Positions 23,786 to 51,496 of a DNA stretch of 56,775 nucleotides are shown in pieces. Numbering within the stretch: the stretch's first letter is position 1; each line of letters starts with the position of its first letter. Position numbers and translations under genes: made by a program. Source of the stretch: Methylococcaceae bacterium (GTDB taxonomy: Bacteria > Pseudomonadota > Gammaproteobacteria > Methylococcales > Methylomonadaceae); assembly GCA_007280895.1 (NCBI GenBank), contig QYQN01000002.1, positions 1-56,775 of the forward strand. Reading direction: 5' to 3'. Below the pieces are notes generated by a model. That model saw only the letters and a list, made by a program, of their open reading frames with translations, did no database searches and was not told the origin of the DNA.

Positions 23786-24931
23786 ATGAAATTTATCCAC
23801 ACATCAGATTGGCATATCGGTCGGCACTTCCACAATGTCTCGTTATTGGAAGACCAAAAGCACGTGTTGCAGCAATTGCTTGAGCACATTAAACAGCAGG
23901 CCGTGGACGCGGTAGTGATTGCGGGGGATATTTATGATCGCTCTGTGCCTCCTGCTGCGGCGGTAACGCTGTTGGACGACGTGTTGAATGAAATTTGTGT
24001 CGTGCTTGGCATTCCTGTGTTACTTATTTCTGGCAACCACGACAGTGCTGAACGGCTGCGTTTTGGTGCTAGGCAATTACGTCAAGCAGGGCTACATATC
24101 ATCGGAGAGCTAAGCCAGCTTAACCAGCCAATAAGAATTCGGGGGAATGCGCAGGAGGTTTGTTTTTTTGGTATTCCCTACACCGATCCTGAATCAGTTA
24201 ACGCGCATTTTAAGCCCGACGTTGAGGTATCTACCCATGACCAAGCTCACCGTTATCTGGTTGAGCAAATTATCAGCACTAAACCTACGGACGTGCCTTG
24301 TGTCCTGATTAGCCATTGTTTTGTTGAGGGCTGGGATGAATCAGAATCAGAACGGCCGCTCTCAATTGGCGGCGCTGATCGCATTAGTATCGATGTGTTT
24401 ACTGGCTTTGATTATGTGGCACTGGGTCATTTGCACAGCCCACAGCACAAGGGTGAGCGGCAAATTCGCTACTCTGGTTCAATTTTGAAATACAGCTTCT
24501 CCGAGCAACATCAACGCAAAGGCGTTACCTTGGTGGAAATGAATGCTGAGGGTATGCACTCCGCTACGCATTTGCCTCTGCAGCCACTACGCGACATGCG
24601 TATTCTGGAGGGCGAGTTGAATGTCTTGCTGGAACAAGGCAAAACCGATCCGCATCAAGACGATTATTTGCTGGTGCGCTTAACCGATAAACACGCCTTG
24701 CTTGATCCTATGGGTAAATTGCGGCAGGTGTATCCCAATGTGCTGCACCTTGAAAAACCAGGTATGTTAGCCATGTCCGAACAGACCATTACGCGGGATA
24801 GGAAAAAACACAATGAATTGGACATGTTCCGTGATTTCTTTGAACAAACCCATGGTCAAGTCTTAACACCTGCTCAAGAGTTGGCACTTAACGCTACCCT
24901 GACAGATATTCATAAAGGAGCACAAGGGTGA
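23786..24931 (+). CDS. sbcD: Exonuclease subunit SbcD
   Basis: 381 aa Mre11-type nuclease subunit of SbcCD, which cleaves DNA hairpins and processes blocked ends. Phosphoesterase motifs run in order: IHTSDWHIGRHFHN, VVIAGDIYDRSVPP, LLISGNHDSAERL, LISHCFVEGW and ALGHLHSPQ, supplying the two-metal ligands. The C-terminal capping domain follows. It overlaps sbcC by 4 bp. The perfect TTATCCACA at 23793 is simply part of its first codons. Confidence 0.97.
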   Translation: MKFIHTSDWHIGRHFHNVSLLEDQKHVLQQLLEHIKQQAVDAVVIAGDIYDRSVPPAAAVTLLDDVLNEICVVLGIPVLLISGNHDSAERLRFGARQLRQAGLHIIGELSQLNQPIRIRGNAQEVCFFGIPYTDPESVNAHFKPDVEVSTHDQAHRYLVEQIISTKPTDVPCVLISHCFVEGWDESESERPLSIGGADRISIDVFTGFDYVALGHLHSPQHKGERQIRYSGSILKYSFSEQHQRKGVTLVEMNAEGMHSATHLPLQPLRDMRILEGELNVLLEQGKTDPHQDDYLLVRLTDKHALLDPMGKLRQVYPNVLHLEKPGMLAMSEQTITRDRKKHNELDMFRDFFEQTHGQVLTPAQELALNATLTDIHKGAQG

Positions 24932-27900
24932 AGCCATTACATTTAACATTGCAAGCCTTTGGCCCTTTCGCACAGCGTGAAACCATTGATTTCACTCGAT
25001 TGGGCAAGCATCCCTTATTTCTTATCAATGGTCCGACGGGCGCAGGCAAAAGCTCGTTATTGGATGCCATCTGCGTGGCACTTTACGGACAAACCACAGG
25101 TGCTGAGCGTGAGCCTGCACAAATGCGCTGTGATTATGCTGATGTTGCGCTGCTGACCGAAGTGCAACTGGACTTTCAGTTGGGCACAACCTGTTACCGG
25201 GTGCGGCGTGTGCCACTTCAGGAGCGGCCAGCAAAGCGTGGTGACGGTATTACCGTTCAGCAAGCCCAAGCGCAATTGTGGCAGCTTGATGCAGAGCATG
25301 GCGATATCTTGCTCGTTGCAAAAAGTGTCAGCGATGTCACCAATGAAATCCGTCAACGCATTGGTTTAAATGTTGAGCAATTTCGCCAAGTGATGGTGTT
25401 GCCGCAAGGTAAGTTTCGCGAATTGTTGATGGCAGGCTCCAGTGACCGTGAAAAAATCTTCAGCCAATTATTTCAAACGCAAATTTATAAGCGTATCGAA
25501 GAGCAATTGAAAGCACAGGCAGTGGGGATAAAACAGGAGGTAGAGCAGCATCAACAGCAAATTAGGGGTCTTTTGCAAAGTGTTGAAGCACCGTCGGATG
25601 CGGCAATTAATGATGAGCTGAGCCAGCTTAAGCCCGCCTTGGCGGTTGCGTTACAACAGAAAGGCGATGCTCAACAAGCACTGTTGCAGGCGAGTAACGC
25701 CAAAGATCAGGCACTGGTATTAAATCAACGCTTCGCTGCCTTAACTACTAAACACACTGAACTGGCTCAGAAAAAAGCCCAGCAATCGTTAATTGATACC
25801 AAGCGAATACGCTTGGCTGCTGCGCTAAACCATCAGAAAATTAAGCCTGTTCATCAGTCGTATCAAGAAAAAGCAAGCGCACTACAAAAATTAACTCAGC
25901 TTCTTAATGACAGTGAACAGGCTGTGGCAAAGGCGACAGTGGCAAAGCGTGATGCTGAACAGCACTGGCAGGCAGCCCAAACGGCTTTCACTGAAGTTGA
26001 CTCCTTAAAGACGCAGCAGATAGAACTTAATCAGTATCAGGGTCGAGGTGCTGAGTTGTTGCACGCGCAAACCAATTTGACGGCGGTGGAGCAGCGCTTC
26101 ACGCTCTGCCAAGATGCGGTTAATAAGCAGTTAACAACCAGAGACGCGGTGGTCGCCGAACAGAAAACCACCGCTGCCCATATTGAGCAAAGTGCGCAGG
26201 TGTTGGAGTGCTTGGCAAGTCGACAGATTGCTTTGGAAGCCTATCGGGTGGGTTATGAACAATGCAAACAGCTGGAAGACAAACGCGGCAAACAACGCGA
26301 CTTAGCACAGCACGAAGCTAAGTTACTGGAGGCTTATCAACGCAGCCTAAGCACCTTAGACACCATGCAAACCAAGGCGCGTCAAACAGAATTGGCGTGG
26401 CACACGGGGCAAGCTGCCTTACTTGCACAGGAACTTCAGGTCGATCAGCCTTGTCCCGTGTGCGGTAGCACGGTTCATCCTCTTCCTGCCCATGCCGTTA
26501 AGGCTGCCGAGCTTGTTACCAAGCAGCACGTAGACAGCGCCAGAGCCACAGAGGAGCAGTCACGTAAAGCATTGGATAGAGCAAAAGCAAGCTATGACAC
26601 ACTCCATCTGGATCTCGTGAGTCTAGGTAATGAAGTAAACCAATTGACCGTTCAATTAGGCGCTATTGCCCAGCAAGCATTAACCGACATTGGGCACACT
26701 TACCAGACTAAACAGGCTGAGGTTGACAGCTTGCTAAGACAGCAAACCGAACAGAAGCAGCGCATCCAGCACCATGCCAAACTAAACCAGCACTTGACTG
26801 AGTTGGTAGAAACGCTTGCCGTGTCGGAAACTCAGGCGAAAGTAGCGAATAATGACGTGATTACGGCGCGTGCTAATGTGCTGCAGTTGGAAAAACTGGT
26901 GCCCGCTGCGTACCGTGATGTTCAGGTAGTAAGTAATGCGATTAATGCCTTGCTTGCTAAGATTAAAAAACTAACTGCGGCGGTCACACTGGCACAAACC
27001 GATGTCACGGACAAGTCCAACCAGCTAGCTAGCGCATGCTCTAATCTAGCCACCTTAGGTCAGCAGCGTGATAGCGTGCAACACGATGCTAATCAGACTG
27101 AAGCCGCGTGGACGCTCGCGTTAAGAACCAGTACGTTTGCCAATTTTGACGACTTCCACGCGGCCTTACTTAGCGATGACGAGCAGCATTTGTTACAACG
27201 CCACATTGAAAGCTACTACTCTGAACTCGCAAATGTGCACGGTGCAGTCGATCAACTTCAAGCAGAGTTAATAGGGCAGTCACGGCCTGAGTTGGACAAA
27301 CTCGAGGCGGAACTTATTGAGAAAAGCACTGCCCTTAGTGCCTATGAGTTGGCATGGCAAACCTTGCAAGAACGCCATAACCAGTTACTTGCAGTGCAAC
27401 GCAAACTTGCCAGTGCGCACGAAAAAAATGCTGCGTTGGATGCGCGCTATCAAATTTATGGCACCTTAAGTGACGTTGCTAATGGACAAACGGGTGACCG
27501 CATCAGCCTGCAACGCTTTGTACTGAGCACGTTATTGGAAGATGTCCTCATCCAAGCTTCACAGCGACTGCATAGTATGAGCAAAGGTCGTTATCAGTTG
27601 GTGCATAAAAATGATCGAACGAAAGGGAATAAAGCCTCAGGACTGGAGCTGGAAGTTGAAGATAGTTACTCTGGCAAAAATCGTTCGGTGGCAACATTGT
27701 CGGGAGGTGAGTCGTTCATGGCCGCCTTGTCTTTGGCACTGGGTTTGTCTGATGTTGTGCAGTCTTATGCAGGTGGCATCAAGTTGGATGCTTTGTTTAT
27801 CGATGAAGGCTTTGGCAGCCTTGATCCTGAATCATTGGACTTAGCTATTAGAACCTTAATCGACCTGCAAGCCAGTGGTCGGATGATTGGCATTATCTCC

Positions 27901-27990
27901 CACGTGTCTGAGTTGAAAGAACAAATGGCGGTACGGATTGATGTCATTAGCACTGCAAGAGGCAGTCGTCTTGCTATTATCGCGCCCTAA
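24928..27990 (+). CDS. sbcC: Exonuclease subunit SbcC
   Basis: 1020 aa Rad50-type SMC ATPase, starting at a GTG inside the end of sbcD. Walker A is LINGPTGAGKSSLLDAI. Two long coiled coils, rich in Gln, Ala and Lys, flank the zinc hook DQPCPVCGSTVHPLP (about residue 510). The C-terminal lobe has the signature TLSGGESFMAALSLALGLSD and Walker B LDALFIDEGFGSLD. The palindrome-processing role of SbcCD is of interest because this window contains a 50-bp perfect palindrome at 43189. Confidence 0.97.
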   Translation: MKPLHLTLQAFGPFAQRETIDFTRLGKHPLFLINGPTGAGKSSLLDAICVALYGQTTGAEREPAQMRCDYADVALLTEVQLDFQLGTTCYRVRRVPLQERPAKRGDGITVQQAQAQLWQLDAEHGDILLVAKSVSDVTNEIRQRIGLNVEQFRQVMVLPQGKFRELLMAGSSDREKIFSQLFQTQIYKRIEEQLKAQAVGIKQEVEQHQQQIRGLLQSVEAPSDAAINDELSQLKPALAVALQQKGDAQQALLQASNAKDQALVLNQRFAALTTKHTELAQKKAQQSLIDTKRIRLAAALNHQKIKPVHQSYQEKASALQKLTQLLNDSEQAVAKATVAKRDAEQHWQAAQTAFTEVDSLKTQQIELNQYQGRGAELLHAQTNLTAVEQRFTLCQDAVNKQLTTRDAVVAEQKTTAAHIEQSAQVLECLASRQIALEAYRVGYEQCKQLEDKRGKQRDLAQHEAKLLEAYQRSLSTLDTMQTKARQTELAWHTGQAALLAQELQVDQPCPVCGSTVHPLPAHAVKAAELVTKQHVDSARATEEQSRKALDRAKASYDTLHLDLVSLGNEVNQLTVQLGAIAQQALTDIGHTYQTKQAEVDSLLRQQTEQKQRIQHHAKLNQHLTELVETLAVSETQAKVANNDVITARANVLQLEKLVPAAYRDVQVVSNAINALLAKIKKLTAAVTLAQTDVTDKSNQLASACSNLATLGQQRDSVQHDANQTEAAWTLALRTSTFANFDDFHAALLSDDEQHLLQRHIESYYSELANVHGAVDQLQAELIGQSRPELDKLEAELIEKSTALSAYELAWQTLQERHNQLLAVQRKLASAHEKNAALDARYQIYGTLSDVANGQTGDRISLQRFVLSTLLEDVLIQASQRLHSMSKGRYQLVHKNDRTKGNKASGLELEVEDSYSGKNRSVATLSGGESFMAALSLALGLSDVVQSYAGGIKLDALFIDEGFGSLDPESLDLAIRTLIDLQASGRMIGIISHVSELKEQMAVRIDVISTARGSRLAIIAP

Positions 27991-40417: not shown

Positions 40418-41107
40418 TTAAGATTCCAAGGTAGAGGCTAAGAGGGTTATGGCGGTTATTTGAATCACACAACGTTCAGCGTTTACGCCAGGAAGACTAA
40501 GGGGGGTGCAGTGCGTATGCGCACTCATTGTACTGGGTAATGTGGCTATTTCAGTTGCTGCGTGTTGACCTTTCATAGCAAGCAATTGCCCGTCTGGGTG
40601 GATGACATGGGCAGTTAGTTTAATAATATCCTGAAGACTGGCAAAGGCACGTGTTATCGCAGTATCGTAAAGTAGCTCAGGGATATAGGTTTCCACGCGT
40701 TGATGAAGGACGGCAACATTGGTGAGTTTTAATTCCACTATTGCTTGTTGTACAAAGCGTGTTTTTTTAGCGTTACTGTCCAGCAACATAAACTGTTTGT
40801 CTGGACACGCTATCGCTAAAGGAATGCCTGGCAAGCCAGCTCCCGTACCAATATCAATAATGCGCTCACCTAAAACGAGGGGCTGAATGGCTAGGCTATC
40901 AATGATGTGTAATTTAATCATTTCGTCGATAGCGTTAATCGCCGTGAGATTGTAGATTTTATTCCATTTTTGAATTAATAAGATAAACAGACTCAGTTGC
41001 TCAAGCTGGACATGAGAAAGTGTGATATTTAATGCCTTAATGCTTGTTTCTAAAAGCGTTTGGCAAGATGTTGGCAGCTGAGTAGAGGACTTTTTGGCAA
41101 CATTCAT
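40418..41107 (-). CDS. rsmG: 16S rRNA (guanine(527)-N7)-methyltransferase RsmG
   Basis: 229 aa. It methylates G527 of 16S rRNA, and loss gives low-level streptomycin resistance in known species. Motifs: KWNKIYNLTAINAIDEMIKLHIIDSL, the SAM site IIDIGTGAGLPGIPLAIA, and FMLLDSNAKKTRF. The start overlaps the mnmG stop (TAATG), so translation is coupled to mnmG. Confidence 0.97.
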   Translation of the reverse strand: MNVAKKSSTQLPTSCQTLLETSIKALNITLSHVQLEQLSLFILLIQKWNKIYNLTAINAIDEMIKLHIIDSLAIQPLVLGERIIDIGTGAGLPGIPLAIACPDKQFMLLDSNAKKTRFVQQAIVELKLTNVAVLHQRVETYIPELLYDTAITRAFASLQDIIKLTAHVIHPDGQLLAMKGQHAATEIATLPSTMSAHTHCTPLSLPGVNAERCVIQITAITLLASTLES

Positions 41108-42978
41108 TAGGCAGATTTCTTTTTTAAATAAACCAATAACAAGGAAATGGCAGCAGGAGTGATCCCAGGAATTCGTGAGGCTTGTCCTAAGGTTTCAGGG
41201 CGTTGCTTGCGTAGTTTTTCGCTGACTTCATTGGAAAGACCCGTGATCGTGAAGTAGTCAAGGGTTAAGGGTAATTTTAAGTGATCGTAACGCAGTGACT
41301 TATCAATTTCAGTTTGTTGACGCGTGATATAGCCTGCATATTTAGCTTGTATTTCAACTTGTTCAGTGACGTGCTCGGGATACTCAAATGTATGCTCAGC
41401 CAGTGCAAGTAAGCCTTGAATATCCACTTCTGGACGACGTAATAATTCCATAAGATTGGCTTCTTTTAGTAAGGGTTTACCCCAGCGCTCAGCCACTTCT
41501 TGTGCAGCAACACTTTCTGTGCGCACCCATTGTTTTTTCATGGTGTCTTGCAGGTCTGTAATAGCGGTACGTTTGTTTTCAAAGCTTGCCCAGCGGTTAT
41601 CAGCCACTAAGCCCAATTCGCGACCTGTGGGGGTCAGGCGTAAATCCGCATTATCTTCGCGTAATAACAATCGGTATTCGGCACGACTGGTGAACATACG
41701 GTAAGGCTCTTGAGTGCCGCGCGTGATTAAATCATCAATCATTACGCCAATGTAAGCCTCATCACGTCTTGGGCACCAACTGTCAAGCTCTTTGCACTGA
41801 CGAGCAGCATTTAGCCCAGCAATTAAACCTTGAGCAGCGGCTTCTTCATAGCCAGTGGTACCATTAATTTGACCAGCAAAAAATAAACCCTGAACCTGTT
41901 TGGTTTCTAAGGACGCTTTTAAGTCGCGAGGGTCAAAAAAATCATATTCAATCGCATAGCCTGGTCGGACAATCTCAGCGTTTTCAAAGCCAGTCATTGA
42001 GCGAACAAACTCATATTGCACGTCAAAAGGGAGACTTGTCGAAATGCCATTGGGATAAATTTCATGAGTATCCAAACCTTCAGGTTCAACAAAAATTTGA
42101 TGACTATCGCGCTCAGCAAAGCGAACAACTTTATCTTCGATTGACGGACAATAGCGTGGACCAATGCCTTCAATAACGCCAGAGTATAGTGGTGAGCGAT
42201 CTAAGCCTGCACGAATAATTGCGTGGGTTTTTTCATTAGTGCGAGTGATATAGCAGGGAATTTGTTGGGGATGCTGCGCACGGTGTCCCATAAAGGAAAA
42301 CACGGGAACCGGTTGATCGCCCTCTTGTCGTTCGAGCTTGGTAAAATCAATGGTACGGCCATCAAGGCGAGGGGGGGTGCCAGTTTTTAAGCGTTCCACA
42401 CGAAATGACATAGCACGTAAACGTTCAGCTAACAGTGTGGAAGCAGAATCGCCGGCACGCCCGCCACTGTAGTGTTCAAGGCCAATATGAATTTTACCTG
42501 CTAAAAAAGTACCGGCCGTTAATACCACAGCACGAGCATAAAAGCACAGTCCCATTTGAGTTTTAACACCAATAACGCGATCGTGTTCGATAATTAAATC
42601 TGCGGCCATTTGTTGAAAAAGCGATAAATTGACCTGATTTTCTAAATGGTAACGAATTGCGCGTTTATATAATATACGATCTGCTTGGGCACGTGTGGCG
42701 CGTACAGCGGGGCCTTTGCTGGCATTTAAAGTGCGAAATTGAATGCCCGATAAATCAATAGCATGCGCCATGATGCCACCTAAGGCATCAATTTCTTTAA
42801 CTAAATGACCTTTACCAATGCCGCCAATGGCAGGATTGCAACTCATTTGCCCAAGGGTCTCAATATTTTGCGATAATAATAAGGTATTTGCGCCGCAACG
42901 TGCCGACGCTAACGCAGCTTCGGTGCCAGCATGACCGCCACCGATAACAATGACATCAAAATGTTTTTTGAATTTCAC
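41107..42978 (-). CDS. mnmG: tRNA uridine-5-carboxymethylaminomethyl modification enzyme MnmG
   Basis: 623 aa, standard length. It is an FAD enzyme that works with MnmE to modify the wobble uridine of several tRNAs. FAD-binding sequence [22 protein letters not shown] starts the protein. Then come [37 protein letters not shown], and [22 protein letters not shown]. The C-terminal helical domain binds MnmE. It is first in the mnmG-rsmG-parA-miniParB-parB unit. The mnmG neighbourhood is often close to the replication origin, but dnaA, rpmH and rnpA are not in this window. Confidence 0.98.
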
Positions 42979-43038
42979 AAGTTTTGTTAATCTATTGGTA
43001 AGAAGTTAATTTTTAAACGCTATTATAAGAGGTAAACG

Positions 43039-43245
43039 ATGAAAAAAAGTAAAAAACGACAACATTCTATTGATAAAACTGTGCCGAATGTGATTAGAAA
43101 CCCCGTTGCAAAGTTTGCTCATCAGGTGAATAAAACAAGTTTTTTTCGTGATAAAACCAAATATTGCCGTCAAGGTAAGCATCAAGGCCAGGAGGCTTCG
43201 CCGATAATTTTTATAAAAATTATCGGCGAAGCCTCCTGTGCATAG
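43039..43245 (+). CDS. Small basic protein, DUF7230-like, with palindrome-encoded tail
   Basis: 68 aa, below the size most annotations trust, but AGAGG stands at ideal distance before ATG. Its core RNPVAKFAHQVNKTSFFRDKTKY with a Lys/Arg-rich frame resembles a short conserved basic protein family of gammaproteobacteria (DUF7230 from memory). The last about 18 codons are written by a perfect DNA palindrome (43189-43238), giving a near-mirror peptide, EASPIIF then KIIGEAS. The palindrome may be a terminator or an inserted repeat that the frame reads through. Function unknown; an RNA or ribosome role would suit the charge, but that is a guess. Confidence 0.6.
   Translation: MKKSKKRQHSIDKTVPNVIRNPVAKFAHQVNKTSFFRDKTKYCRQGKHQGQEASPIIFIKIIGEASCA
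43189..43238. repeat. 50-bp perfect palindrome
   Basis: The left arm CAGGAGGCTTCGCCGATAATTTTTA is followed directly, with no spacer, by its exact reverse complement. The RNA would fold into a long hairpin; the DNA could extrude a cruciform and is the kind of structure SbcCD cleaves. It overlaps the 3' end of the small basic protein gene and touches the nested inverted repeat that follows. Confidence 0.9.
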
Positions 43246-43348
43246 TGCAGGCACTAGGCGCAAGCCGTATTGCACCAAACCTTGAGCCATCAAGCGTCGC
43301 AATACGGCTTGGCAACTGCTCCGACGTCGCCTAGTGCGACCTATGCAC
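43238..43348. repeat. Nested inverted-repeat element (REP/MITE-like), copy 1
   Basis: Four nested stems are visible: GTGCATAG/CTATGCAC (43238-43245 with 43341-43348), GCACTAGGCG/CGCCTAGTGC (43251-43260 with 43328-43337), CAAGCCGTATTGC/GCAATACGGCTTG (43261-43273 with 43299-43311) and inner CTTGA/TCAAG. The 26-mer GCACTAGGCGCAAGCCGTATTGCACC recurs at 51471-51496 with 23 of 26 identities, so this is a dispersed repeat. There is no ORF inside, so it would have to be mobilised by enzymes from elsewhere. Confidence 0.8.
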
Positions 43349-43388
43349 TGAGTCGTTACGAAATATGTGTAATGAAAGAGGTGTGTAA

Positions 43389-51467: not shown

Positions 51468-51496
51468 GGTGCACTAGGCTATAGCCGTATTGCACC
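51468..51496. repeat. Dispersed inverted repeat, copy 2 (partial)
   Basis: GGTGCA-CTA-GGCTATAGCC-GTAT-TGCACC is a hairpin with GGTGCA/TGCACC arms and a central self-complementary GGCTATAGCC. It shares the 26-mer with copy 1 at 43251 (23 of 26). Only the left half of the larger element is present. It lies between the converging glucan synthase and epimerase genes, where it may also aid termination. Confidence 0.7.

Follow-up and report, generated by a model that had tools for sequence, protein, structure and literature searches.

Background

In Escherichia coli, the message of the ribosome-rescue factor ArfA contains a hairpin at which the messenger RNA (mRNA) is cut by ribonuclease III (RNase III) or at which transcription ends, leaving an mRNA that has no stop codon. 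The shortened ArfA is tagged via transfer-messenger RNA (tmRNA) and destroyed, and the fully active form accumulates only if trans-translation fails (PMC8012679, PMC3989581). BrfA of Bacillus subtilis follows the same scheme through an in-frame terminator, and a Lys-His motif common to ArfA and BrfA touches nucleotide U534 of the 16S ribosomal RNA in the mRNA channel (PMC6881298), which in ArfA is filled by a basic stretch of amino acids (aa) 31–48 (PMC5378476). In a recent survey of rescue pathways (PMC11633108), which takes account of ArfA and ArfB, ArfA is the least conserved mechanism and is confined to Gammaproteobacteria, some Betaproteobacteria, and ten species of the B. subtilis group. 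Here, a locus of a Methylococcaceae bacterium (assembly GCA_007280895.1) is compared with these systems. The window, i.e., the whole stretch of DNA that was analysed, is the 56,775-bp contig QYQN01000002.1, and the element under study is a perfect 50-bp palindrome that sits mid-contig, within a 68-aa open reading frame (ORF) of the Pfam family DUF7230 (PF23876). Pfam describes DUF7230 simply as a family of unknown function. Our analysis suggests that it is probably a ribosome-rescue factor of an ArfA-like kind that has escaped recognition, with non-stop control gated by tmRNA. Coordinates of all features are given in Table 1.

Table 1. Positions of the features discussed, in coordinates of the window
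Feature	Position	Strand	Remarks
Perfect palindrome, equal to an RNA hairpin	43189..43238	+	Inside the ORF; DNA arms 43189–43213 and 43214–43238; RNA stem 43189–43211 / 43216–43238, loop 43212–43215
68-aa ORF of DUF7230 (PF23876), proposed ArfA-like rescue factor	43039..43245	+	Pfam match and spread of the family
Stop codon TAG, in frame	43243..43245	+	4 nt past the hairpin; a processed mRNA would lose the TAG
Conserved basic core, aa 18 to Lys47-His48 (VIRNPVAKFAHQVNKTSFFRDKTKYCRQGKH)	43090..43182	+	Pfam match at aa 18–55; alignment of 33 homologues
Lys-His codons AAG CAT	43177..43182	+	Anchor of the hairpin position; hairpin starts in 76/76 homologues
mnmG (gidA), divergent neighbour	41107..42978	-	Conserved gene context
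TATTATAAG + AGGTAA immediately 5' of ATG, -10-like box and ribosome-binding site (putative)	43021..43035	+	Same string in most homologues
Second inverted repeat ("nested repeat"), imperfect dispersed element	43238..43350	.	Outside the conserved hairpin; differs in the sister species
SbcD	23786..24931		Encoded within the window
SbcC	24928..27990		Encoded within the window

In-frame hairpin and its conservation

The two palindrome arms of 25 nucleotides (nt) each are 100% complementary with a spacer of 0 nt, and the ORF runs through both of them and terminates 4 nt beyond. Hence, the spacer-free palindrome ending a small protein that had been recognised in a preliminary description, made from the sequence alone, was borne out. 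In a random 57-kb sequence, a perfect 50-bp palindrome would be expected about 5e-11 times (57,000 × 4^-25). As RNA, the palindrome forms a stem of 23 bp closed by a 4-nt loop, and the folding energy of a 66-nt stretch is -44 kcal/mol (z -11.6).

The preliminary description had proposed a comparison of the 3' end of this gene in related genomes, and this was done for 80 DUF7230 loci. Hairpins were parsed in 76 of these; the remaining four were excluded, as they had either escaped the motif search or ran into a contig end. Unless otherwise stated, all hairpin counts refer to these 76 homologues. A hairpin was found at the same place in every one of them, with an offset of -2 to +10 nt between the Lys-His codons and the start of the stem, stems of 19–31 bp (median 26), and a loop of usually 4 nt. 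Most relatives have stems with mismatches and a loop of at least 4 nt, and the hairpin sequence differs between homologues though its location is constant. The hairpin site was the best-scoring window of its own locus in 75 of the 76 cases, and a score of at least 36 was reached by 70 hairpin sites compared to 7 out of 14,616 background windows taken from the same loci.

Covariation was determined on two sets of sequences. When 30 sequences were aligned without gaps, 86.9% of the cells were paired and 24 of the 29 pairs showed double changes; the number of double-changed cells was 117, whereas shuffling gave 37 +/- 5 and sliding the partner never more than 36. RNAalifold recovered the helix unaided, with 19 of 21 pairs covarying. 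Across 49 sequences, 179 double changes were counted, compared to 59 +/- 9 when the 3' arms were dealt out randomly. Wobble pairs were strongly biased, i.e., 132 G-U cells were observed vs 23 A-C cells, and this excess of G-U over A-C shows that it is the sense-strand RNA that pairs, and neither an antisense RNA nor the DNA. The pairing is thus under selection as sense RNA.

The same constraint was observed at close range in a sister species (locus L148), which carries a near-identical gene with a differently spelled palindrome that still pairs, beside a different adjoining repeat. Eight of the 50 palindrome positions differ, and six of these are three double changes that preserve pairs; of the remaining two differences, one leads to a G-U pair and the other disrupts pairing close to the stem foot. 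Both peptide arms are altered by these changes (EASPI to EAWLM and GEAS to SQAC). The peptide is therefore free to change while the hairpin is constrained. The mirror-like tail that had been noted in the protein (EASPIIF / KIIGEAS) does result from translation through the palindrome, but it is a by-product of RNA pairing, because the peptide changes in the sister species while the pairing stays.

The rival that retains the most weight, although we consider it unlikely, sees in the hairpin a usual intrinsic terminator, or a 3' structure that stabilises the mRNA, which by chance overlaps the end of a small gene of unrelated function, e.g., for another small basic ribosome-associated protein. Terminators are often located near stop codons, and a T-rich stretch at the stem foot (at least 5 T in 8 nt) was found in 59 of the 76 homologues vs a background of about 30%. 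The position of the hairpin, however, follows the Lys-His codons rather than the stop codon: the loop lies 24–31 nt downstream of the Lys-His codons, at exactly 29 nt in 52 homologues, and the stop codon varies in position between 26 nt upstream and 90 nt downstream of the stem end. In 70 homologues, moreover, the reading frame runs through the stem uninterrupted, compared to 12 and 25 for the other two frames, and the stop codon lies wholly past the stem in 66, so that the hairpin appears to be kept upstream of the stop codon by selection. The window copy, furthermore, has a perfect stem yet no T-tract. The earlier suggestion of a terminator adopted as coding sequence is close as far as the conserved in-frame RNA hairpin and the T-rich foot of most relatives are concerned, but the window copy itself has no such foot.

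Proposed function and alternative explanations

The ORF product matched DUF7230 with an E-value of 4.1e-16 and 59.3 bits (curated cut-off 27) over aa 18–55. The core pattern NPVAK.A...NK...F.DK.KY.R..KH terminates at Lys47-His48, 6 nt 5' of the palindrome; in an alignment of 33 homologues, the core residues N, A, A, and D were invariant and K, F, Y, R, and K nearly invariant. The end of the core, KTKYCRQGKH at aa 39–48, is a basic tail with Lys-His whose K and H are conserved among the homologues and which may contact the ribosome, given the role of Lys-His in the mRNA-channel tails of ArfA and BrfA (PMC6881298). Searches with the window protein yielded no match in NCBIfam (three homologues had none over the cut-off) or among sequences of solved structures. 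No paper naming DUF7230 was found in a literature search that mostly did not reach subscription journals, so that an earlier description is possible, and for ArfA or ribosome rescue combined with Methylococc- this literature gave passing mentions only, none of them about such a factor.

The layout of this gene closely resembles that of arfA. When processed with the same script, E. coli arfA showed a 28-bp stem starting +10 nt after Lys-His, with the stop codon 10 nt past the stem, and three further ArfA genes of the class had a similar hairpin layout. Like ArfA (YhdL, PF03889; E. coli, beta- and gammaproteobacteria), DUF7230 is small and basic and contains the gapless motif KxxYxRxxKH common to both, and its gene has an in-frame hairpin after the Lys-His codons, a stop codon beyond it, and a weakly conserved tail, in a genome with tmRNA and RNase III. 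Unlike ArfA, DUF7230 has the N-terminal part NPVAKxAHxFNKA...F.DK, the ArfA model gives no match, and the gene lies beside mnmG instead of mscL. BrfA (YqkK) shares the ending of the message within the coding region and the Lys-His in the mRNA-channel tail, but it belongs to another protein family and phylum and uses a typical T-tract terminator, which is missing from the window copy. ArfB (YaeJ) likewise serves alternative ribosome rescue, but it has its own GGQ catalytic domain, and an origin from a non-stop message is not known for it.

The rescue machinery of the window genome and of related genomes was then considered. The window genome encodes a tmRNA (G000:C24:155-533, 212.6 bits, tag ANDENYSMALAA) and RNase III, and no ArfB was found in it. 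ArfA (PF03889) matched in none of 61 genomes, i.e., the own genome and 60 relatives, at E ≤ 0.001, with the E. coli positive control being found, and the window protein had no ArfA match in the Pfam search. DUF7230 was found in 38 of these 61 genomes and, across the order, in 181 of 251. ArfB was present in 71 of the 251, namely in 30 of the 70 genomes without DUF7230 vs 41 of the 181 with DUF7230; this negative association (Fisher p 0.003, uncorrected for phylogeny) is modest and suggestive only. One near-complete genome of the same genus (G010) is without DUF7230 and carries ArfB. Class-wide counts of ArfA and DUF7230, with 3 and 10 of 274 genomes, were too sparse for a test of exclusion. 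The basic core ending in Lys-His, the hairpin after it, and the presence of tmRNA together with the lack of ArfA and ArfB point to DUF7230 as an ArfA-like factor made from a non-stop message.

We propose that the palindrome encodes an RNA hairpin that selection has kept within the 3' end of the DUF7230 gene, upstream of its stop codon. RNase III would cleave the mRNA within the stem, or transcription would terminate there instead in those relatives that have a T-tract, and the majority of messages would be left without a stop codon. Ribosomes at the new mRNA end would normally be rescued by tmRNA-SmpB, with the short protein being tagged and destroyed. Once tmRNA is overwhelmed, a C-terminally shortened protein of about 50–57 aa, comprising the whole basic core through Lys-His, would survive and act as an ArfA-style backup ribosome-rescue factor.

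This proposal would assign a specific role that can be tested to a so far uncharacterised family that occurs in most of the sampled genomes of the order, many of which would be scored as lacking a backup of trans-translation by surveys that count ArfA and ArfB only (cf. PMC11633108). It is conceivable, but rather doubtful in our estimate, that DUF7230 evolved independently, fills the place of ArfA in Methylococcales, and is, after ArfA and BrfA, another case of the same circuit, in which an in-frame hairpin would turn the message of a rescue factor into a substrate of the system that it backs up. If DUF7230 is unrelated to ArfA, such a feedback circuit based on a non-stop message would be a recurrent solution. 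The arrangement would also provide a cheap search rule for rescue factors, i.e., small basic proteins with a conserved core that ends at an in-frame covarying hairpin.

Several observations weigh against the proposed function. First, comparison of the DUF7230 and ArfA profiles with hhalign gave 11% and 23% over only 13–14 columns, which is not significant. Clear homology was hence not obtained, a relationship of DUF7230 to ArfA is not established by these profiles, and "works like ArfA" is a stronger claim than "is an ArfA". Second, ten of the 76 homologues have an in-frame stop codon at or inside the 3' arm, and their messages would become non-stop only if they were cut inside the stem. Third, no T-tract was found after the window stem (maximum of 3 T in 8 nt) and a terminator scan returned none, which makes RNase III cleavage the likelier processing route here. 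Fourth, four distant DUF7230 members (L052, L053, L056, and L155) are without a hairpin, while two others (L050 and L051) have stems of 24–27 bp. Fifth, DUF7230 and ArfB occur together in 41 of the 251 genomes, so that the two are not mutually exclusive, and strict mutual exclusion was rejected. Finally, what was observed is the hairpin with its placement, conservation, covariation, and open frame, together with the presence of tmRNA and RNase III, and from these we infer the cleavage or termination, the tagging via tmRNA, and the rescue activity.

The last point leaves some room, though little in our judgement, for a second rival in which the message is arfA-like, non-stop, and tmRNA-gated, but the protein has another translation-stress job and does not rescue ribosomes. 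Such a reading draws on the regulation being better supported than the activity and on the non-significant ArfA homology. It is opposed by the basic core, which ends in Lys-His in the same register as the ArfA and BrfA tails, and by the absence of a recognisable ArfA from all 61 genomes that were sampled within the order.

A purely DNA-level palindrome, i.e., a cruciform, a protein-binding site, or an inserted repeat end with no RNA role, is very improbable. In favour of it, the palindrome is perfect and spacer-free at the DNA level and adjoins a dispersed repeat, an adjacency that the preliminary description had correctly pointed out. A whole-genome search with the region and the arm, however, returned self-matches only at 0 mismatches, and other arm matches had 3 mismatches and were no more frequent than in a reversed control. 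With no second copy in the genome, a dispersed repeat or mobile element end was rejected. The hairpins of homologues occupy the same place with other sequences, mostly with mismatches and loops of at least 4 nt, and the sister species keeps the palindrome beside a different repeat, all of which contradicts the inserted repeat end that had been considered earlier; the compensating changes in the sister species argue against it as well. The wobble bias to sense RNA (132 vs 23) already contradicted any DNA-level role. The preliminary description had also raised the puzzle that a perfect palindrome persists in a genome encoding SbcCD. Both SbcD and SbcC are indeed encoded within the window, but the puzzle itself is weak, since the stems of relatives mostly have mismatches or a loop of at least 4 nt, and the known instability concerns much longer palindromes.

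Assembler or amplification errors can create long palindromes, but a fold-back at a contig or read end is extremely improbable for a palindrome that lies mid-contig, has a hairpin counterpart in all parsed homologues, and in the sister species is spelled differently and still paired through three double changes. A search of the hairpin against Rfam gave sub-threshold matches only (eukaryotic microRNA hairpins and similar), which are generic to any perfect hairpin.

Gene neighbourhood and further observations

The genome scan was performed with a model built from a closer subset of homologues, as the broader alignment was too diverse. All 80 DUF7230 loci of the naming scan belonged to Methylococcales methanotrophs, including Methylovulum, Methylobacter, Methylomonas, Crenothrix, and Methyloglobulus, or to further members of that order. 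Within the g14 and g256 genomes, including G032 (same family, two related genera), many are near complete yet without a DUF7230 match. At one locus of the same genus (L153, G014:C191:3400-4700), two frames each contain part of the DUF7230 match, and a 22-bp hairpin is still there; this gene looks frameshifted, or there is an assembly error.

In two distant DUF7230 members of another family of the class (L054 and L055), there is no Lys-His ending, and a classic terminator, consisting of a short G+C stem with a T run, lies within the ORF. An in-frame signal that causes loss of the stop codon may hence be wider than the hairpin type described here, judging from these two sequences.

A filtered search found no tmRNA over the Rfam cut-off in four near-complete genomes (G003, G008, G010, and G026), which may reflect an assembly gap or a real loss. 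Three of them (G003, G008, and G026) have DUF7230, and G010 has ArfB.

An MnmG motif was found divergently upstream of DUF7230 in all 73 testable homologue loci. The string TATTATAAGAGGTAA (43021–43038) is conserved directly 5' of the ATG in most homologues, which suggests a -10 box fused to a ribosome-binding site, i.e., a very short leader. A scan with the sigma-70 consensus gave no site at this putative promoter.

The second inverted repeat, which adjoins the palindrome downstream, has a folding energy of -55.9 kcal/mol. Portions of this repeat were found again, at 69–96% identity, in at least 10 other contigs and at one further site of the window, near position 51,470, and it looks like a member of a dispersed repeat family.
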